Shown piece after piece: positions 46,582 through 63,330 of a stretch of 64,000 nt of DNA. Origin of the DNA: Candidatus Lindowbacteria bacterium RIFCSPLOWO2_12_FULL_62_27 (GTDB lineage: Bacteria; Lindowbacteria; 2-12-FULL-62-27). The stretch's first letter is position 1, and each line of letters opens with the position of its first letter. The position numbers were made by a program, and so were the translations under genes. The notes below the pieces were generated by a model. That model ran no database searches. It was not told the DNA's origin and saw only the letters and a list, made by a program, of their open reading frames with translations. The stretch lies in contig MFPR01000012.1 of the NCBI GenBank assembly GCA_001784175.1, positions 1 through 64,000 of the forward strand, given 5' to 3'.

Positions 46582-47393
46582 CGCGGATCGCCCGCCCCGA
46601 CAGATACATCGCGTCGCACCAGATGGTTGTATATGGATTTGAAAAAATAGTATCCCCATCCCCAGCGGGACTGCGCCGACGGCGGGCTGGCGTCGGAGAC
46701 GCCGGCACTTGGGGCGCCGGAGGCGCTGACCCGGCCGGAACCCCAGTCCGGATCGTAGTGATCTTCGCTGTACAGGAATCGCTCCGGATGCGGCATGAGG
46801 CCGAACACGCGACCCGAATCGTCCTGCAAACCCGCGATCGCGCAGGCCGAGCCGTTCACGTTGTCTTCATACACGAGCGGCGCCAGTCCCGAAGCGATGT
46901 AGGATTCCGCCAGCCCCGGCCGGGCGACAAACCGGCCCTCCCGATGGGCGATCGGCAGCTCGAAGACGTCCGGGAGGGCTGAGAGATAGGGATTGTCCGG
47001 GCACAGCGTCCGAAGCCGGACCCATCGGCAGAGGAAGGCATGGCTTGCGTTTTCGATCAGCCGGCCTTCCGGCAGAAGGCCGAGCTGAACGAGAATCTGA
47101 AACCCGTTGCAGATGCCCAGGATCAATCCGCCGGCCGACCGGTAGGCCAGGAGCGCATCGCCCAGTTTCCGCTGGATCTCCAGCCGCGCAAGCCGGCCCG
47201 CGCCGATGTAATCGCCGTAACTGAATCCGCCCGGAAGAACCAGGAGGTCCGAGCCGCAAATGAGTTCGCGGGTCGCATCCGAAAAGGGCACGATGTCGGC
47301 GGCAAATCCTGCCAGCCGCAGCGCCCGCGCCGTTTCCCCGTCACAGTTCGTGCCGGGAAATTTCAGAAGTGTCGCTTGAGGCCGTTTTTCCAT
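46578..47393 (-). CDS. purQ: FGAM synthase glutaminase subunit
   Basis: 271 residues from ATG 47393, overlapping purL by 31 bp. LKFPGTNCDGETARALRLAG, nucleophile LGICNGFQILVQLGLLP, and MPHPERF as the His-Glu pair. A 49-bp repeat lies in frame at residues about 219-235, after HYDPDWG and before WGYYFFKSI, extending the usual C-terminus. Supplies ammonia to PurL through PurS. Confidence 0.94.
   Translation of the reverse strand: MEKRPQATLLKFPGTNCDGETARALRLAGFAADIVPFSDATRELICGSDLLVLPGGFSYGDYIGAGRLARLEIQRKLGDALLAYRSAGGLILGICNGFQILVQLGLLPEGRLIENASHAFLCRWVRLRTLCPDNPYLSALPDVFELPIAHREGRFVARPGLAESYIASGLAPLVYEDNVNGSACAIAGLQDDSGRVFGLMPHPERFLYSEDHYDPDWGSGRVSASGAPSAGVSDASPPSAQSRWGWGYYFFKSIYNHLVRRDVSVGAGDPR
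46689..46737. repeat. 49-bp twin-hairpin repeat, in-frame in purQ
   Basis: Copy of the element at 28011 with the same reading phase ([16 protein letters not shown]). The host protein continues normally on both sides, so the insertion is tolerated. Confidence 0.9.
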
Positions 47394-49807
47394 ATCTCTT
47401 TCAATTCCGTGATCGGTTCGGTCAGCCAGGGGTCGCGCGCAGCGTCCATGCGGATGATCAGGTTCCGATGCACGGGCGTGGCCTGGCCGAGGATGGAGAA
47501 CGGCGTTCCGGCAAACCGTTCGTAGACGTCGCCCAGATGCGCCTTGTCCACCTCGAACAGGATCCGGCCGTTCGACTCGGAAAACAAAAGATCCGCCGGA
47601 CCGAGGCCGCGTTCGCGGTCCATTCGAACGAGGTCGATCTCCACGCCGGCCCGCGTCGAAAACGCCAGCTCGCACAGAGCCACCGCGAGGCCCCCCTCCG
47701 AAACGTCATGCGCCGACAGGATCAATCCCGACTGCACGCATTCATGAAACCGCCGGTACGTCTCAAATACCCGGTCCGCTTCCAGCCCCGGCGCCGCGCC
47801 ATCCTCCACGCCCAGCATCCGATGAAACGCGCTGCCTCCCAGTTCCCCTTTCGTTTGGCCGGCCAGGCAGATCATGGTGTCCGACCGGCGCAGCGTTGCG
47901 CCCGTTACGTGGTCTTTGCGATCCACGACGCCGAGCGCGGTCACAAGAAGCGTGACGGGGATCGAGCGGGCCGTTCCGCCGGAAACGAAATAATTATGAA
48001 AGGAATCTTTTCCGGAAATGAACGGCGCGCCGTACGTTTCCGCCGCGTGCGACATCCCTTTGACGCATTCGACCAGCCGGCCCAGCTCGTCGGGACGATC
48101 CGGATCGCCCATGCAAAAATTGTCGAGAAGTGCGATCTTGTCGGGATGCGCGCCGGCCACGACCACCTGCCGCACCGCCTCATCCACGGCCGACTGGCCC
48201 ATCCGGTACGGATCGAGAATCCCGTACTGCGGCAAAAGTGACACGCCGATGGCGATGCACTTGGCGGTTCCTTCCGCCCGAACGACGACGCCGTCCTGGG
48301 CATTGTCGCCGCCGGCGCCGGCCAGAGGCTTGAGGACCGTGTTGCCCTGAACCTCAAAATCATATTCGCGGATGACGGGCTCCCGCGAGGCGATGTTCAT
48401 ATCCCCGAGCAGGGACCGGACCCACTGGCGCATATCCCGCCGCGCGGTGGCCGTCCGGTCGAGGGCGGGCGTGGCGGGCGCCACCCCAAGAGACCGGGAC
48501 GCCGGAGAATATTCGGACCGCAGAGATTTCTGCGGCGCCGAGTGGAGGAATTCCACATCAAGGCGGCACTGCCGCTGTCCGGCCGCGAAGACTTCGAGGG
48601 CGGGCGTGCCCGTGATCTCGCCGATTTCGACGCATTCGGTTTCATGCCGCACCGCCAGCCGGTCCAGCGCATCCAGGTCGGCCGGACGGACCGCCATCAC
48701 CATGCGCTCCTGGCTTTCGGAAAGAAAAATTTCCCACGGTTCGAGATTCTCTTCTTTGAGCGGGACGCGGTCCAGATCGACCCGCGCGCCGGCCGCCCGC
48801 GCCATCTCGCCGATGGCGCTTGAGAGGCCGCCGGCGCCGCAATCGGTGATCGCCTCGATGAGCCCCGCCTCGCGCGCTTCCAATATGAAGTCCGTCAGTT
48901 TTTTTTCCTCAATCGGGTTTCCGATCTGAACCGCCTGCCGGTCCGACTCGTGACTCTCGCCGGTCAGGGACGCTGACGAAAAGGTCGCGCCGTGCAGTCC
49001 GTCCCGGCCCGTCCGCGCGCCGGCCACGACAATTTTCAAGCCGGGATACACTGCCTTTGGAATGGCACGAGTCGGAATCAGGCCGGCGGCGCCGCAGAAA
49101 ACCAGCGGGTTGCAGGTGAACCGATCGTCAAAATGAATCGCGCCTGCGACCGTCGGAATGCCCATCCGGTTGCCGTAGTCGCGCACGCCCCTCACCACGC
49201 CGCGGAAAACGCCCAGCGGATGGATCACGCCGCCGGGCAGGGCATCCGGATCGGCGTCCGGCCGGCCGAAACAGAAAACGTCCAGGCTCGCAACCGGTTT
49301 GGCGGCCTGGCCCGCGCCCAGAATGTCCCGGATGACGCCGCCCAGGCCGGTGTTCGCGCCGGCGTAAGGCTCGATCGCGGACGGATGATTATGGGTTTCG
49401 ACTTTCAGGCACGCGGCCGTCGTGTCATCCAGCCGGATGAAGCCGGCGTTGTCGTCGAATGCGCCGAGGACAAATCCGGGCTTTTGCCGCCGGATCCGGT
49501 CGGTGACGCCTTGAATGAAGGTCGCGAAAATGCCGTCCACAATTTCGGTCTTCCGGCCGTTCCGGTGAATGATCCGAGCGTTGAATACGCGGTGCTTGCA
49601 GTGCTCGCTCCACGTCTGCGCCAGGACCTCGATCTCGAGCAGGGTCGGCCGGCGGCTCAGGCTCCGGAAATAATCCTGGATCGCAATGAGGTCGGGGACC
49701 GACAGCGGCAGTTTTCGTTGAGCGCTGAATGCCGCCATCTCGTCGATGGTCTCCACGTCGAGCTGCGGCGCGGCTTCAGGCGATTCCAGAAGCGTCGAAT
49801 CAAGCAT
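47363..49807 (-). CDS. purL: FGAM synthase, small PurL type
   Basis: 814 residues; ATG 49807 overlaps purS by 8 bp. Two AIRS-type halves: TWSEHCKHRVF, KVETHNHPSAIEPY and GAGGLSSAIGEMA in the first, SGKDSFHNYF and SAHDVSEGGLAVAL in the second. No glutaminase domain, so PurQ and PurS are needed; both genes are adjacent. ATP-dependent conversion of FGAR to FGAM. Confidence 0.96.
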   Translation of the reverse strand: MLDSTLLESPEAAPQLDVETIDEMAAFSAQRKLPLSVPDLIAIQDYFRSLSRRPTLLEIEVLAQTWSEHCKHRVFNARIIHRNGRKTEIVDGIFATFIQGVTDRIRRQKPGFVLGAFDDNAGFIRLDDTTAACLKVETHNHPSAIEPYAGANTGLGGVIRDILGAGQAAKPVASLDVFCFGRPDADPDALPGGVIHPLGVFRGVVRGVRDYGNRMGIPTVAGAIHFDDRFTCNPLVFCGAAGLIPTRAIPKAVYPGLKIVVAGARTGRDGLHGATFSSASLTGESHESDRQAVQIGNPIEEKKLTDFILEAREAGLIEAITDCGAGGLSSAIGEMARAAGARVDLDRVPLKEENLEPWEIFLSESQERMVMAVRPADLDALDRLAVRHETECVEIGEITGTPALEVFAAGQRQCRLDVEFLHSAPQKSLRSEYSPASRSLGVAPATPALDRTATARRDMRQWVRSLLGDMNIASREPVIREYDFEVQGNTVLKPLAGAGGDNAQDGVVVRAEGTAKCIAIGVSLLPQYGILDPYRMGQSAVDEAVRQVVVAGAHPDKIALLDNFCMGDPDRPDELGRLVECVKGMSHAAETYGAPFISGKDSFHNYFVSGGTARSIPVTLLVTALGVVDRKDHVTGATLRRSDTMICLAGQTKGELGGSAFHRMLGVEDGAAPGLEADRVFETYRRFHECVQSGLILSAHDVSEGGLAVALCELAFSTRAGVEIDLVRMDRERGLGPADLLFSESNGRILFEVDKAHLGDVYERFAGTPFSILGQATPVHRNLIIRMDAARDPWLTEPITELKEIWKNGLKRHF

Positions 49808-50974: not shown

Positions 50975-51023
50975 TCCTCCCTCTCCCGCCTGTGGCGGGA
51001 GAGGGTCGGGGTGAGGGTGGCAG
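50975..51023. repeat. CTCTCCC palindromic repeat in the purC leader (inverted orientation)
   Basis: CCCTCTCCCGCC-TGT-GGCGGGAGAGGG with the GGGTGAGGG tail on the right, i.e. opposite to the neighbour at 51044. The two copies can also pair with each other through their tails, making a large structure just before purC. Confidence 0.8.
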
Positions 51024-51043
51024 GTTTCGGTCGTCGCCATCTG

Positions 51044-51091
51044 CCCCCCTCACCTCAATCCTCTCCCCCCTGCGGGGGGAGAGGAGGTGAG
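51044..51091. repeat. CCCTCACC/CTCTCCCC palindromic repeat in the purC leader
   Basis: CCTCTCCCCCC-TGC-GGGGGGAGAGG with the CCCTCACCTC tail on the left. Between riboswitch and purC, where strong hairpins could serve as part of the expression platform or simply be insertions. Confidence 0.8.
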
Positions 51092-51207
51092 TAGTTACGT
51101 TCGTTCTTTGTTCCGGGTAACGGGGGACAGGGCATCTGCCTTTAAGTGAGTGATCTCGCCAGGGCGGGCGGCCAGTGGCCGCGGGCGCGCAAACGGCGGG
51201 CTCAGTC

Positions 51208-51274
51208 ACTCGTAGTCAGGAGGTTCCGGCCTCCTGGTAGATACTCCCGGTCCCATTACCAGGATTATACGAGT
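51208..51274 (-). promoter_or_regulatory. Guanine-type purine riboswitch aptamer before purC
   Basis: Read on the minus strand. P1: ACUCGU (51274-51269) pairs with ACGAGU (51213-51208). J1/2: AUAAU. P2: CCUGG/CCGGG around loop UAAUGGGA. J2/3: AGUAUCUAC. P3: CAGGAGG/CCUCCUG, seven pairs, around loop CCGGAA. J3/1: ACU. The C of J3/1 is the position that selects guanine over adenine, and the core U residues are kept; only the flipped-out U48 position is A. Loops L2/L3 differ from the usual AUAUGG/CCGUAAA, but could still make G-C kissing pairs. Downstream UCACUC (near 51151) can pair with GAGUGA of the P1 3' strand, a possible switching helix. It should repress the purine/pyrimidine run when guanine is plentiful. 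Confidence 0.8.
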
Positions 51275-51318
51275 TCGTGATCCAACGTCTGAAATTCCGT
51301 GATCCTCTCCTAACTTGG

Positions 51319-51344: not shown

Positions 51345-54300
51345 TTATGAGCAACCCAATGTGTTGCCGCAGTTTGTACATTTGTAGCAGGTACCGCTCC
51401 GCACCGTGACGTGGCCGCAGGCGTTGCAGAACGGGGCGTCCGACATCAGCGACGAATGGAATTCGTTCACCACCGCCGTCACGCCCGATTTGCCGTTGCC
51501 GCCGTTCGATTTCTCATCAATGTCCTTATCGTCCGGCGGTTTCACCTGCGCGACGTCCGTGCGTTTGAGGTAATCGACCGCCAGGATTCGAAATATCATA
51601 TCGATGACCGAGGTGGAGTACTTCACGTACGGATGGCCTTCGACTGGACCATAGGGCTGAAACCGGCTGAACGTGAAAGAATCGACATATTCCTCCATCG
51701 GGACGCCATATTGTAATCCGAGGGATACGGCAATCGCGAAACAGTTCATCAGGCTCCGAAAGGCCGCGCCCTCCTTGTGCATGTCGATGAACAATTCCCC
51801 GAGCGTCCGGTCCTCGTATTCGCCCGTGCGCAGATACACCTTGTGACCGCCCACCCGCAGCTCATAGGTGATGCCGCCGCGTTTGCGGGGCAACCGACGG
51901 CGGCGCGGACCGGCCTCCTCCCGGGCCGGCGCGGCGCCGTCCTTCTCCTCATCCACCGGGCGGATCGACACGAGGGCCTGCACGGCTTTGGAGCCGTCCC
52001 GATAGATGGAAATGCATTTGCATCCAAGTTTCCACGCCATCCGGTAAGCCTCTTTCACGTCCTCCACGGTCGCGTCGGCGGGCATGTTGATGGTCTTGGA
52101 AATGGACCCGGAAATAAACGGCTGGGCCGCGGCGATCATCCGAATGTGCGACGGCCAGCCCAGCGCGCGCCGGCCATGGATGCCACAGCGGTTGGCGCAA
52201 TCAAAAATCGGGAGATGGTCCTCTTTGAGGTGCGGCGCAAATTCGATGGTCTGCCAGCCGCAAATGTACTTGTTCGCCGTCTCGATGTCTTCCTTTGAGT
52301 AACCCAGATGATCCAGCAGATTGAAATCGAACCGGGTGAGATCATCCTCCGGCACGCCCAGCCGCAGGAGGGCGGCGCGATCGAACGAGGCGGCAGAAAA
52401 TACCTGCGTCAGGTGCAGGGCGTTCGGCAGCATTTCTTCGATTCTTTTAACGCGGCCGGGGTCAAGACCCTTGCCGATCAGAGACTCCGCATGGATGGCC
52501 GGCGCGCCCTGAAACGTCCCTCGCCCGAGCACATGGTGCGTCACGTCGGCGATCTGGTCGTCCGCGTAGCCGAGCCGCCGGAGCGCCTCCGGAACCGCCT
52601 GGTTCACGATCTTGAAGTACCCGCCGCCGGCCAGTTTCTTGAATTTCACCAGCGAATAATCGGGCTCGATTCCGGTCGTGTCGCAATCCATCAGAAGGCC
52701 GATCGTGCCGGTCGGCGCCAGGACCGACGTCTGGGCGTTCCGGAATCCGAATTTCCGTCCCAGGGCCAGCGCATGGTCCCAGGATGCACAGGCCTCTTCG
52801 TAGAGATAATACGTGAGCAGGTCCTTGTCGATCCCATGGGCGGCGTCCCGATGCATTTCGATGACGTCCAGCATGGCCTCGCGGTTTTTCGAATATCCCG
52901 CAAACGGTCCGTTGACTTCCGCCAGCCGCGCGGACTGCGCGTAGGCGGCGCCGCACATGAGCGCCGTCACGGCCGAGCAGACGGCGCGGCCGCGGTCGGA
53001 ATCATAGGGGATGCCCATGAGCATGAGCAGCGTCCCGAGGTTCGCGTAGCCAAGTCCGAGCGGCCGGTAGTCATGAGAATTTTTGGCGATCTCGGCGGTC
53101 GGATAGGACGCGAAATCCACGATGATCTCCTGGGCCGTCGTCAGGAGTTCCACCGTATGCCGGAATGCGGCCACGTCGAAGGCGCCGTCGGGTTTCAAGA
53201 ATTTGGCCAGATTGATCGACGCGAGATTGCAGGCGCTGTCGTCAAGAAACATGTACTCCGAGCAGGGATTGCTCGCGTTGATCCGGCCGGTCTTCTTGCA
53301 CGTGTGCCACCGGTTGATCGTCGTGTCAAACTGCAGGCCGGGGTCGGCGCACTCCCAGGCGGCGTGGCAAATCCTGTCGAACAGGTCCGGCGCGCGGTAT
53401 TCCTTCGCGACCTTGCCCGACGTCACAAACCGCGTCTGCCAGGCGCCGCCCTCCTCGACCGCCCGCATGAATTCGTCCGGAACGCGCACGCTGTTGTTCG
53501 AGTTCTGGCCGCTCACGGTCTTGTAGGCCTCTCCGTCCATCTCGCCGGAAAATCCGGCGGCGATGATCGCGCGCGCCTTCGCCTCCTCCCGCGCCTTCCA
53601 GGACACGAAGGCCTCGATGTCCGGGTGGTCGGCGTTCAGGATCACCATCTTCGCCGCGCGGCGGGTCGTCCCGCCCGATTTGATGGCGCCGCCGACCTTG
53701 TCGTAAATCTCCAGAAACGACATGAGTCCGGAGGAATTCCCGCCGTTCGAGAGCGGCTCGCCCGCGCCCCGCACGGTCGAGTAGTTGCTGCCCGCGCCGG
53801 AGCCGAACTTGAAAATCTTCATCTCGCGTTTCACGTGCTCCGCCAGGTCCATGAGATCGTCCTTGATCGATACGATGAAACACGCGGAAAGCTGCGGCCG
53901 CGAATACGCGTCCTCGGCTTCGCGGGCGGCGTTCAACCTTTCGTCGTAGCAGAAATTCCCGATGGGACTGCCCTTGATTCCATATTCATGTAAAAGCCCG
54001 CAGTTGAACCAGACGGGCGAATTGAACGCGGAGATCTGGTGGATCAGGAGGTGGGTCAGTTCCATTTCGAAAATGTCCGCGTCCTCTTCCGTGCAGAAAA
54101 TCCGCTGCCGCTCGCCCTCCTGCCGGAGCGTCCGGGCCAGCCGCGTCACCACCTGGCGCGCGCCGGTTTCCATGTCGGTCCCGGGCACGCCGGCCTTCCG
54201 AATGTATTTGGACGCCAGTATGTCGGTCGCAAGCTGTGACCAGAACTCGGGCACCTCGATGTCCTTGAGTTCAAAGACCACCGTGCCGTCCGGATTCAGG

Positions 54301-54458
54301 ATGCGGGATGTCCGCTTCGTCCAGGTGATCTCATCGAACGGATGAATTCCTTTTTTAGTGAACACGCGCGTAAATCGCAGGCCTCTCGGCAAATCCCGCC
54401 TCTGCAGGGCCGGACGAACCCTCCGGCCGGCCACCGGCGTCTGAAGTTTCATGGTCAT
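51345..54458 (-). CDS. nrdJ: B12-dependent (class II) ribonucleoside-diphosphate reductase
   Basis: 1037 residues from ATG 54458. ATG 54506 (AGGA five bases upstream) would add 16 residues; the frame to 54605 re-enters the riboswitch. [14 protein letters not shown] at the N-terminus, [33 protein letters not shown] (active-site cysteine and glutamate), [20 protein letters not shown], and a C-terminal zinc-ribbon-like [19 protein letters not shown] tail. Makes deoxyribonucleotides without oxygen dependence, using adenosylcobalamin. Own promoter and own purine riboswitch, directly upstream of the purine cluster. Confidence 0.95.
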
Positions 54459-54602
54459 ATCAAGTCTTTTCGCCCCACCTTCCCCGTTTCTCGACTCTTC
54501 ACTCATTCGCATCCTGATTGGGACCTTCAAAGGAGGGACCACAAGTGAAAGACCTCGCGCGCCATGCATACACCGGCGAACCGCACGCCCGCGAACTCTT
54601 GT

Positions 54603-54671
54603 CACCCGTAGTAGGGAGGTTCCGGCCCCCCTGTAGAAACTCCCGGACCCATTACCAGGATTATACGAGTG
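54603..54671 (-). promoter_or_regulatory. Guanine-type purine riboswitch aptamer before nrdJ
   Basis: Minus strand. P1: CACUCGU (54671-54665) with ACGGGUG (54609-54603), seven pairs including one U-G. J1/2: AUAAU. P2: CCUGG/CCGGG with loop UAAUGGGU. J2/3: AGUUUCUAC, identical to the canonical guanine core. P3: AGGGGGG/CCUCCCU with loop CCGGAA. J3/1: ACU, guanine-type C. It begins about 20 bases after the predicted transcription start and ends 145 bases before the nrdJ ATG. Helices co-vary with the purC copy (P1 and P3 change in both strands), supporting a real structure. Purine-class riboswitches ahead of ribonucleotide reductase are best known from the 2'-deoxyguanosine variants of Mesoplasma. 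The U51-equivalent is retained here, which favours guanine. Confidence 0.8.
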
Positions 54672-54699
54672 AATCTATTTCACATCGCAAACAGTCGGG

Positions 54700-54728
54700 C
54701 TTATACTTGGCTCAAATGCGAATGTCAA
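54700..54728 (-). promoter_or_regulatory. Sigma-70-type promoter of nrdJ
   Basis: TTGACA (54728-54723), a 17-base spacer and TATAAG (54705-54700) on the minus strand. The start of transcription would fall near 54693, about 20 bases ahead of the aptamer P1. Confidence 0.7.
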
Positions 54729-54820
54729 GTCAAAAAAGAAACAATTCCGTATCCGGTCAGAAAATTTTTGTTCCAACAGTCAGCCGGCGCACGTAATGTG
54801 GCATCAGAGAGTATCTATTC

Positions 54821-54865
54821 ACCTCCTCTCCCCCCGAAGGGGGGAGAGGATTGAGGTGAGGGGGG
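54821..54865. repeat. CTCTCCCC palindromic repeat upstream of the nrdJ promoter
   Basis: CCTCTCCCCCC-GAA-GGGGGGAGAGG with the GAGGTGAGGG tail on the right. It lies between the immunity-like gene (ending at 54990) and the nrdJ promoter. The strong hairpin might act as a terminator for the upstream unit. No gene is seen from 54729 to 54989. Confidence 0.8.
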
Positions 54866-54989
54866 CCGATGACGGCCGGGTCCATGGCGCCGCAACGAAT
54901 GGTTGTGTTTAGCCTCCTCGACAAATGCCAACCCGATCGCAAGCGCGCTGGCGGTGGGAAAGAATTTTACACAGTTGTTCCCAAAGGAG

Positions 54990-59212: not shown

Positions 59213-60196
59213 TCAATCGGGCGGTCTGGAGATCGCCGAGTCCGCCGGTCCGGCGGGTTTCATCTGCGCGGCGGGGTGCGTGGCGGCGTGGATTTTTTTG
59301 AGCTGATCGATGACGACGTGGGTATAGCGTTCGGTGGTGGCGAGTCCCTTGTGCCCGAGCATGGCCTGAATGAAACGGATGTCGGCGCCGTTTTGGTGCA
59401 TGTGAGTGGCGAAGGTGTGGCGGAAGATGTGGGAGGCGCCGCGTTTTTGGATGTCGGACTTGCGAAGGTATCCGCGGATCCATCCGTTGAGCCGGTTGCG
59501 CGGGATTTGTTTGCCGGTGTTGGATACGAATAACCAGCGCTCGTCCGGAGCGGCGACGAGCTTGTGGCGCGCGTCCTGGGTGTAGGCCGCGATCCACTGC
59601 AAGGCGCGCTCGCCGATGGGCACCACGCGATCCTTGCGGCCTTTGCCTTTTCGCACGATCACCACGCCCTGCTCGCGGACGGCGTCGTCGATCTTGAGGT
59701 TGCAAATCTCCATCCGCCTAATTCCCGTCGAGTAGAACGTCTCCATGATCGCGCGATCGCGCAGGCCCTGGGCGGTGGCGAGATTGGGCTGCGTCAAGAC
59801 GCGCTCGATTTCTTCGCGCGACAAAAAGTCCGTCGGCAGCGTGTTGTCCCGGCGCGGGATGTCGATGTCGGCGGCCGGATTATAGAGGACGAGATTTTGG
59901 CGGATGAGCCAGCGGAAAAACGATCGGATGTGGACGAGGATGGTTTGCTGATAGGCGAGACTGAGGGGGCGGTCGGTTCGCGGGTTGATCGTGTGGAACA
60001 GGTGGCGCTGATAGCGTTCGAGGATCGGGCGGGTGATGTCGGTCGGCCGGAAGATGCCGCGTTCTTCGCACCAGGCGAAAAATTTCCGCATGCTGTATTG
60101 CGAGCGGTTGATCGTGTCCTCGGAGTGGCCTTTGATGCGCGACGCCTCGGCGAACTGCTCGAAGCGCGCTTCGAATCCGGCCGGATCGCGGGGCAT
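59213..60196 (-). CDS. Tyrosine recombinase (XerC/D-like integrase)
   Basis: 327 residues. N-terminal SAM-like core-binding domain (15-105: INRSQYSMRKFFAWCEERGI), then the catalytic domain with STGIRRMEI (Arg), KGKGRKDR (Lys), HIFRHTFATHM (His-x-x-Arg), LGHKGLATTERY (His and Tyr nucleophile). A complete R-K-H-R-H-Y set, so probably active. Lies 26 bp after the primase gene, as in integrated elements. No attachment site was identified. Confidence 0.92.
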   Translation of the reverse strand: MPRDPAGFEARFEQFAEASRIKGHSEDTINRSQYSMRKFFAWCEERGIFRPTDITRPILERYQRHLFHTINPRTDRPLSLAYQQTILVHIRSFFRWLIRQNLVLYNPAADIDIPRRDNTLPTDFLSREEIERVLTQPNLATAQGLRDRAIMETFYSTGIRRMEICNLKIDDAVREQGVVIVRKGKGRKDRVVPIGERALQWIAAYTQDARHKLVAAPDERWLFVSNTGKQIPRNRLNGWIRGYLRKSDIQKRGASHIFRHTFATHMHQNGADIRFIQAMLGHKGLATTERYTHVVIDQLKKIHAATHPAAQMKPAGPADSAISRPPD

Positions 60197-60222
60197 TCGC
60201 CGCTAAGGGAAGGGAAATTTTA

Positions 60223-63200
60223 CTACGACGACACCGTACTACGACGGCGGCCGTTTCCCAATATATGCGTTTTGGCCCAATTTTGCATCAGCGCGCGGGA
60301 AGCTTTCGAGGCTGTGAGGATTGCGCCGAAATTTGGCTTCCGCGAACCCGCCGCGAACCCACCGTTTTGAGGCCGTTTTGATACCGCGAGGTTGGGCTTT
60401 TCAGCCGCGAGGTGGCTGTTTTCCACCGCGAGGTTGGCGTCGTAGTTGAATGGCTCCGGCGTTTTCAGGGTCGTAACATCAATCAAACCCGGACAAAACT
60501 TGCGGCCGTCCTTGCCCTGGCCGTCGTAGAGCAGTTCATACTCGAACGAGATCCCGCGCGCGCCGCGATGGATCAGGACGTACTCCAGGTCATCCAGTTT
60601 TTTCATGTGGTCTTTCACCTGCGTGGGACTCATGCCCGCGTAGTCGCGCACGTCGCGGCGGGTGAATCGGACGTTTTCACGCGGGACGTTTTGTTCGGCG
60701 GCGCGGCGGGTCACGAGGTCGTCGAGGATCAAGAGAAGCCGACGCGTGGGCGCCGGCATTTCGTCCAGGGACCGGCCGAGGATTTCATCGGCCAGTTTAT
60801 TCGCCGCCGCGATGTCCTCCGGCGTCGATTCGATCACTTGGACGGTCTTGCCGCCGATTTTGACGGGTCGAAGCGGGCGTTGATACTGGTTGAGAAGCGT
60901 GATCGACAAAATGAGCGTGAGATATTTGGGATGGTCGCGGCGGGTTCGGATGCACGTGTCGTTAAACGTCAACTGGTCGGCGTAGGGGTTGATGACTGGC
61001 AACGGCCGCAAGAGGCGCTGGGCGTTTCGATGCCGGCGCAGGATCGCTTCGCGCTCCGCCAGCCGCACAAGTCCGGCGAGGGTGTGGCTCTGGCGCTGCA
61101 TGTCGTGGATTCGTTTCGTCTGGTCCCGATCCTCGTTGACCGTTTCGATCAGCATCCGGTTCATGAGTTCTTCCGCGATGTCCAGCTTCGTCGTCGTCAT
61201 AAACACGCTGGCGGGGCCGGGCCTTTCCTTCCGGCGCGCGATGAGGTTGCCGGTTTGCGGGTCTTTGATGGTCGCGGCGATGACGAGTTTGCCGTCGCTC
61301 ATGAAAAGTTTGATGGAGTAGCCGGCCTTGGCGGCGCCTTCTTCCTCCGCGATCGCCAGAATTTTGTGCCGGAGATCCACGTCGTCGAGATAAAAGAGGG
61401 CCTGACCCGTCATCGCGCTGAAGTCAACGACGTCCTCCGGCGGCATGAGGGACAGGATCGCGTTCATGACTGCCGTTTTGCCGGCGGCGGTCATGGATTG
61501 GACCAGCAGGTGGAGCGGCGCATCGAGTTTTCTGGACGTGGCGGCGATGTATCCGGCCAGGAGGTTCGTCGTCTCGCCCACCATGCCGATGGATTCGAAA
61601 TCGCGCGCGATTTGGGCGAGCAGGTCGGGCGATTTCAAGAACGCCAGCGCCTCATCGCGGTCCGCGTCGGTCATCGGCGGCGGCGCGTCTTTGGGCGCGA
61701 GTTTCTTTTGAATGAGCGCGTCCCGCATCACTTCGAGTTTGAGCAAGAGTTTCCGAAGGTCATCCTTGAGTACATTCTCCGGAAGGCTCATCTCCACGGC
61801 GGCGGCTTTGAGAAAGGCCGCGCGCAGATTGGCGTTGGCCAGGTCAAAGGTGTGCATATGGTAGCGATTGCCGCAGCTGACGCTGACGTTCAATTTCAAA
61901 ACGCTGTAGCTCGTGTTTTTCTCCAAGTCCCGGATCCGCCACGCGCGGCCGTCAAACGCCTCGTCCAGCAGATGGTCGTTGCCGGCCGGGATCGCCGCCG
62001 CCTCCGGCTCCGCAAGGGCCTCCGGCGGCCCACACGGGTGCATGTCCGACGCGGCCGGATCGGGCGGCGCCGGCGTCAGGGCTTCGATGGGCGCCGCCGC
62101 TTCGGGCGCGGCTAAAGGAATGGATTCATCTTTTTCCTTAGTTGCCGGCGCCGGCAGGACCGAAGGCGCAGAATCGGCGCGGGCCTGCGCCGGCGGCGCC
62201 GTCGCGCAATTTTTGCAGAGCCACGCCGCGCCGCGAAGGAGCGCCCCCAGCGCGTCGGCCGGATCGGAGACGGCGCGCGCGAAGTCGTTCGCGTCCTGGC
62301 CGTGCGGAAACTCGACGCGGAAACACTCAAAGCCCCGCGCGCACAAGATCGGCGCGAGCTTCGCCGCAGCGCGCTCGCCGGCGTCGTCGCGGTCGTAGGC
62401 GATCAACACTTTTTTGATTCCGTATTTTTTGAACGCGGCCAGATGATCCTGTGTGAATCCCTCGATCCCGTAGCTGGCCGTGACGTTGCGGTATCCCGCG
62501 CACCAGAACGTCAGCGCGTCGATCAACGCCTCGCACAAAATCACTTCGGTGGATGCGGCCAGGGCCGACACGTTCCAGACGCCTTTGTGCGGCCCGGGCA
62601 AATACAAATGTTCCGGGGCGTCCCGGCTGGTCTTTTGGATTCGACGGCCGTAGATTTCGGTCACGGCGCCGCTTTCGTCGAACACCGGAAACTCGACGCA
62701 GCCGCAAAAATGTTCCCGGAACGTTTCCCGATAAATGCCCAGACGCCGCAGCCGGTCCCGAAGGTCGCGGCCTTCCTTCACCGCCGAAAACGGCAGGCGA
62801 TAGCCGAGCGTGCGGTTGGCGTAGCCGAGTTTGAAATGGTCAAGGGCGCCGGCGTGGCCGATCCGCCGGCGTTCGAGGTAAGCCAGCGCGTCCGGCGAGT
62901 CTTTCAGGGTCTCGTGATAGAACTCGACGACCTGGCGCAGCGCCGTTTGATCGTCGGCGGTTCGTTCGATGGGCGGCGGAAGTTTTTTGACGGAGAGGGC
63001 GACCGGCGGGCGTTTGGGGTTGATCTGCGACAGCGCCACATCATGGCGGCGCAGAAGTTCGACGGCGTGCGTGAAGGACACGCCCTCCGCTTTCATCACC
63101 CACGCGATCACGTCGCCTCCGGCCTGGCACGCGCCGAGACAGTGCCAGAGATTTTTTTCCGGCGTAATCACGAGAGATGGTGAGTGATCCGAGTGGAAGG

Positions 63201-63330
63201 GACACAGGCCAATCAGGTCCTTTCCGTGGGGTTTCAATTCGACGCCGCGGCGTTGTGCCAGGTCCGCGACGCTCACGTCGCGTTTGATTCGGTCGAGTTC
63301 TTCTTGCGGGATTCGCCGGCGTGCTCCCAT
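60223..63330 (-). CDS. Mobile-element primase: CHC2 zinc finger, Toprim and ATPase-like domains
   Basis: 1035 residues, ATG 63330 behind AAGGGA. CHC2 zinc-binding domain (15-95: LCPFHSDHSPSL and WHCLGACQAGGDV). DnaG-like linker, then Toprim (about 245-330: VILCEALIDAL with the catalytic Glu, IAYDRDDAGE with DxD). An Ala/Pro-rich linker (365-435) precedes a C-terminal ATPase-like region with a P-loop-like TAAGKTAVMN near 615 and ALFYLDDVDL/IAEEEGA as possible acidic motif. The C-terminal 150 residues contain a winged-helix-like stretch (YAGMSPTQVKDHMKKLDDLE). Likely replicates an integrative element with the recombinase. Not the chromosomal DnaG. Confidence 0.85.
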   Translation of the reverse strand: MGARRRIPQEELDRIKRDVSVADLAQRRGVELKPHGKDLIGLCPFHSDHSPSLVITPEKNLWHCLGACQAGGDVIAWVMKAEGVSFTHAVELLRRHDVALSQINPKRPPVALSVKKLPPPIERTADDQTALRQVVEFYHETLKDSPDALAYLERRRIGHAGALDHFKLGYANRTLGYRLPFSAVKEGRDLRDRLRRLGIYRETFREHFCGCVEFPVFDESGAVTEIYGRRIQKTSRDAPEHLYLPGPHKGVWNVSALAASTEVILCEALIDALTFWCAGYRNVTASYGIEGFTQDHLAAFKKYGIKKVLIAYDRDDAGERAAAKLAPILCARGFECFRVEFPHGQDANDFARAVSDPADALGALLRGAAWLCKNCATAPPAQARADSAPSVLPAPATKEKDESIPLAAPEAAAPIEALTPAPPDPAASDMHPCGPPEALAEPEAAAIPAGNDHLLDEAFDGRAWRIRDLEKNTSYSVLKLNVSVSCGNRYHMHTFDLANANLRAAFLKAAAVEMSLPENVLKDDLRKLLLKLEVMRDALIQKKLAPKDAPPPMTDADRDEALAFLKSPDLLAQIARDFESIGMVGETTNLLAGYIAATSRKLDAPLHLLVQSMTAAGKTAVMNAILSLMPPEDVVDFSAMTGQALFYLDDVDLRHKILAIAEEEGAAKAGYSIKLFMSDGKLVIAATIKDPQTGNLIARRKERPGPASVFMTTTKLDIAEELMNRMLIETVNEDRDQTKRIHDMQRQSHTLAGLVRLAEREAILRRHRNAQRLLRPLPVINPYADQLTFNDTCIRTRRDHPKYLTLILSITLLNQYQRPLRPVKIGGKTVQVIESTPEDIAAANKLADEILGRSLDEMPAPTRRLLLILDDLVTRRAAEQNVPRENVRFTRRDVRDYAGMSPTQVKDHMKKLDDLEYVLIHRGARGISFEYELLYDGQGKDGRKFCPGLIDVTTLKTPEPFNYDANLAVENSHLAAEKPNLAVSKRPQNGGFAAGSRKPNFGAILTASKASRALMQNWAKTHILGNGRRRSTVSS

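Follow-up and report, generated by a model that had tools for sequence, protein, structure and literature searches.

A guanine-class purine riboswitch aptamer ahead of nrdJ, a class II ribonucleotide reductase gene, in a Candidatus Lindowbacteria bacterium

The usual targets of purine riboswitches are pur genes, xpt-pbuX, guaA and pbuG (PMC4342826). Riboswitches described as preceding ribonucleotide reductase (RNR) genes include the 2'-dG-I riboswitch of Mesoplasma florum, a purine-class aptamer (PMC8872408), and the cobalamin riboswitches of Streptomyces nrdABS and of Bacillus methanolicus (PMC4342826). In both classes of 2'-deoxyguanosine (2'-dG) riboswitch a cytosine at position 58/51 is critical to nucleoside selectivity, the change U51C alone being enough to convert a guanine aptamer to 2'-dG, while class 2'-dG-II is further marked by G-C as its junction pair and by two inserted bases in J3/1 (PMC8872408).

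The locus described here shares with that of Mesoplasma florum the placing of a purine-class aptamer upstream of an RNR gene, but the Mesoplasma target is the beta subunit of a class I-type enzyme and the Lindowbacteria target is the class II enzyme NrdJ; the specificity residue is C58 (equivalent to 51) in the former and U51 in the Lindowbacteria aptamers. The cobalamin riboswitches of Streptomyces and Bacillus methanolicus likewise stand before RNR genes, but sense B12; no cobalamin riboswitch was matched within the 64-kb window. With the guanine riboswitches (RF00167; xpt, pur operon, guaA and pbuG type) the locus has in common the fold, U51, C74, the loop-loop G/C pairs and the proposed P1-based switching, and one of its two aptamers likewise precedes purC; it differs in its target, nrdJ, and in its phylum, Lindowbacteria.

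The window, meaning the whole 64,000-nt stretch analysed, comes from Candidatus Lindowbacteria bacterium RIFCSPLOWO2_12_FULL_62_27. The relevant features all lie on its minus strand, where nrdJ, a second aptamer, purC, a 149-aa ORF and purL follow one another in that order:

54700..54728 (-), sigma-70-type promoter TTGACA-17-TATAAG with 11 of 12 consensus bases; transcript start expected near 54693
54589..54688 (-), purine riboswitch aptamer of nrdJ, P1 to P1' at 54672-54602; RF00167 67.8 bits
54532..54561 (-), conserved leader block of nrdJ, with putative anti-P1 UUUCACUUGUGGU (54550-54538) running on into putative anti-SD UCCCUCCUU (54538-54529)
54473..54485 (-), probable Shine-Dalgarno (SD) region GGGGAAGGUGGGG of nrdJ, sequestered in the predicted fold with the aptamer enforced
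51345..54458 (-), nrdJ, class II B12-dependent ribonucleotide reductase, from profile matches
51193..51292 (-), second purine aptamer, in the purC leader, carrying U48A; RF00167 66.6 bits
50233..50949 (-), purC (SAICAR synthetase); TIGR00081 234 bits, PF01259 272 bits
49800..50249 (-), ORF of 149 aa between purC and purL, without a Pfam or NCBIfam match
47363..49807 (-), purL (FGAM synthase II); TIGR01736 592 bits, cutoff 526

The sequence-only reading had placed a purine-class aptamer between a strong promoter and nrdJ, and the searches bear this out. The nrdJ product matches class II RNR profiles (NF005122 at 1240 bits, TIGR02504 at 588 bits with a cutoff of 400, and PF02867), and its class II N-terminal domain is also above threshold (PF08471, 88 bits, cutoff 27). 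The promoter ends 11 bases upstream of the RF00167 match, and two matches of promoter grade were found against 0.03 expected per window. Translation of nrdJ probably begins at the ATG at 54458, as judged from the SD and from the point where similarity to a relative of the same family but another genus (G002, one of three genomes of the phylum compared) sets in, which gives a leader of about 140 bases from aptamer to start codon. About 50 bases separate the nrdJ stop from the second aptamer on the same strand. Upstream of that aptamer the window contains no convincing promoter, the sole consensus match having its TATAAT within the aptamer.

Several other features of the neighbourhood may be recorded. 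The 149-aa ORF has a similar ORF in the equivalent position in G002, and from its position it possibly has a PurS-like role, perhaps as a divergent PurS. Near-identical GC-rich palindromes (CUCACCUC..CUCUCCCCCC..GGGGGGAGAG..GAGGUGAG), a dispersed repeat, occur at 54818-54872 and 50995-51095, one lying 5' of the nrdJ promoter and the others 3' of the purC aptamer, before purC itself. A second PurC-like frame in the same genome (G000:C30:40406-41077, minus strand), 31% identical to the window PurC, contains one in-frame TGA; beyond the two window aptamers that genome has no RF00167 match. At 59213-63330 (-) a XerC-like recombinase adjoins a 1035-aa protein that has Toprim and DnaG-type zinc finger domains; the pair may belong to an integrated element.

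RF00167 has only two matches in the 4.39-Mb genome, both within the window and both far above its gathering score of 37 bits (E 9.2e-10 for the nrdJ copy). The three helices with conserved junctions and the GG/CC kissing interaction between L2 and L3 are present; in the nrdJ copy every P1 and P3 pair is standard, as are six of the seven P2 pairs, the last being U.U where the purC copy has U-A. The nrdJ copy also has A-U in place of the C54-G72 of guanine riboswitches. The earlier suggestion of a second aptamer with compensatory changes in P1 and P3 proved right in the main, most changes being compensatory and some one-sided: in P3 A-U in one copy answers to C-G in the other and G-C to A-U, with one G.U/A-U difference one-sided, and in P1 a U.G/U-A difference is one-sided and a C-G pair corresponds to an unpaired A.G in the purC copy. 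Loops L2 (AAUGGG) and L3 (CCGGAA) do depart from consensus in both copies, as had been noticed, each being one base shorter than in Rfam. The purC aptamer has in addition U48A in J2/3 (GUAUCUAC), found neither in the nrdJ copy nor in any other short-L2 aptamer collected. By its sequence the nrdJ element is a well-formed guanine-class riboswitch, whose target is unusual and whose phylum is little known.

Downstream of the aptamer, the block at 54561-54532 is identical to the G002 nrdJ leader at 26 of 30 positions, a value reached by none of 300 shuffles. Its first part, UUUCACUUGURGU, resembles the P1 5' strand and is complementary to the P1 3' strand ACUACGGGUGA, while its second part, CCYUCC, leads on to bases complementary to those of the nrdJ ribosome site. 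In the unconstrained model fold the block lies in an anti-P1 helix, and in the fold with the aptamer enforced UCCCUCCUU pairs with the SD (GGAAGGUGGGG), with pairing probabilities that reach 0.98. On average the SD is unpaired with a probability of 0.40 in the free fold vs 0.12 with the aptamer enforced, a difference that holds over four leader lengths. The energy of the anti-P1 duplex alone does not stand out, 136 of 1000 shuffles being as good, and the best partner of the anti-SD strand in G002 is a segment not clearly identifiable as the nrdJ SD. In a model that omits ligand, tertiary and loop-loop energies the aptamer state is less stable than the free state by 9-15 kcal/mol, so that switching would need to be co-transcriptional.

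On balance we consider it fairly probable that a guanine-class purine riboswitch controls nrdJ through a translational OFF switch. The aptamer with its guanine-type core, the promoter, the gene and the conserved block can be read directly from the DNA; the mutually exclusive helices and the sequestration of the SD are as predicted by folding; and for the ligand, the direction of control and the effect in vivo we infer the following scheme. The RNA would begin about 20 bases 5' of P1. Binding of guanine (or hypoxanthine) would hold P1 (UCACUCGUA/UACGGGUGA) in place, leaving the leader block free for its anti-SD part to pair with the Shine-Dalgarno region, and little NrdJ would be made. In the ligand-free RNA, the block's copy of the P1 5' strand, UUUCACUUGUGGU, would capture the P1 3' strand including C74, and the ribosome site would be more open. 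The switch perhaps also affects the co-directional purC-purL genes.

A simpler reading than control of nrdJ itself is that nrdJ merely heads a purine operon, with nrdJ, purC, the ORF and purL on one transcript governed by a plain guanine riboswitch and the pur genes as the selected target. The first description of this locus as a setting for RNR control was right that nrdJ has its own promoter and aptamer, but left unweighed the co-directional purC directly after it, which makes this in part a usual purine operon. The common strand, the tight spacing and the lack of a convincing promoter before the window's purC aptamer agree with an operon, as does the habit of purine riboswitches of preceding pur genes (PMC4342826). 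However, purC owns an aptamer, which would make that of nrdJ redundant for purC; a promoter-like TTGACA-17-GACAAT stands just 5' of the purC aptamer in G002; and the predicted target of the first aptamer's platform is the ribosome site of nrdJ. Because a second aptamer precedes purC and the putative anti-SD is directed at nrdJ, we favour control of nrdJ itself, and judge it unlikely that nrdJ is simply the first gene of the operon.

That the guanine-type aptamer works at the level of transcription, by way of Rho or pausing for instance, is rather less likely still: the long leader would leave room for it, but that leader contains no intrinsic terminator-like site and the predicted folds point to the ribosome site.

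As to the ligand, the sequence-only reading had called the core of both copies guanine-like, and so it appears: U51, C74, A21-U75 and a short J3/1 without insertion form a guanine pocket in each, and U51 and C74 recur in the G002 purC aptamer. It had also left the choice between guanine and 2'-dG even and had taken the loops as a clue to it, and neither point survives. The cytosine at 51/58 that marks both 2'-dG classes is absent. The short L2 and L3 are shared with 2'-dG-II, but the additional marks of that class are missing from both copies, which have A-U as the junction-proximal P1 pair and no J3/1 insertion. To examine the loops, one genome from each of 84,980 species was scanned with a pattern for aptamers with a 6-base L2, U or C being allowed at 51. 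The scan returned 33 stretches, from Bacilli, Clostridia, one Spirochaeta and the Lindowbacteria relative; all 33 have U51 and C74, and both CCGGAA and a last P2 pair of U.U are met again in the set. Since guanine-type aptamers from Firmicutes and one Spirochaeta thus share the odd loops, these loops point to no other ligand.

Scoring against both models, as had been proposed, gave a clear result for RF00167 and a weaker one for the 2'-dG-II model RF03165, whose cutoff of 60 bits is reached by neither the nrdJ copy (48.2 bits) nor the purC copy (57.4 bits). Two Spirochaetota aptamers with U51 (L088:1518-1586 and L090:1518-1586) exceed that cutoff, so the RF03165 score tracks loop shape, and short-looped guanine aptamers are probably over-called by this model. 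With U51, C74 and A21-U75 in place, the insertion missing and the loops uninformative, the ligand is largely settled by sequence and guanine is expected for both copies. That the aptamer senses 2'-dG, so that the reductase is under feedback from its end product as it is in Mesoplasma, is very improbable and was rejected on sequence. In its favour, an RNR gene is the target, the short loops resemble those of 2'-dG-II, RF03165 gives the scores above and A48 of the purC copy is also the 2'-dG-II consensus base; but the pocket has U51 and lacks the other marks, the copy closest to 2'-dG-II precedes purC rather than nrdJ, and U51 aptamers pass the same model.

In a partial survey the combination of such an aptamer with nrdJ was not met elsewhere. 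The 27 nrdJ loci searched in Firmicutes, mostly of Clostridia, yielded no purine aptamer, nor did 43 nrdJ-related loci of viral contigs (28 of them nearly full length), and of 28 purine aptamers in 149 Spirochaetota genomes none adjoins nrdJ. A strict purine-aptamer pattern had no match in viral contigs, nor did the nrdJ leader match phage sequences by blastn. The literature consulted contains no report of a purine or guanine riboswitch paired with nrdJ. The riboswitch class is already known; the target and the lineage look new.

Among the relatives, the order of nrdJ, aptamer and purC is also found in G002, in which the nrdJ leader is cut off by a contig end, roughly at the expected end of the aptamer. 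The purC copy is the sole aptamer in that assembly, none having been found before nrdJ, and two near-identical aptamers could have broken the assembly. The G002 nrdJ is itself split into two overlapping frames (L007, G002:C357), perhaps by an assembly error in a low-coverage contig. The third Lindowbacteria genome (81% complete) yielded no copy of this nrdJ and no purine aptamer.

No further PF02867 protein and no NRDD was found in the genome under study, a 94% complete MAG in which absence is not proof, and NrdR was found in none of the three Lindowbacteria genomes; the same RNR and NrdR searches were positive in many control genomes. Because NrdJ is the sole RNR detected, guanine could set the only known dNTP supply, and the cell probably tunes its supply of DNA precursors to the guanine level. 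A broader proposal, to which we give somewhat less than even credence, is that the phylum's only RNR is set by a guanine riboswitch without the usual repressor NrdR, so that one signal scales all production of dNTPs together with purine synthesis de novo, the nrdJ and purC switches making up a small guanine regulon that joins the supply of RNA and DNA precursors. The association of a guanine pocket with an RNR target indicates that gene context alone does not predict the ligand and, in a lineage without a detected NrdR or second RNR, dNTP synthesis would, if this is confirmed, join the guanine riboswitch regulon.
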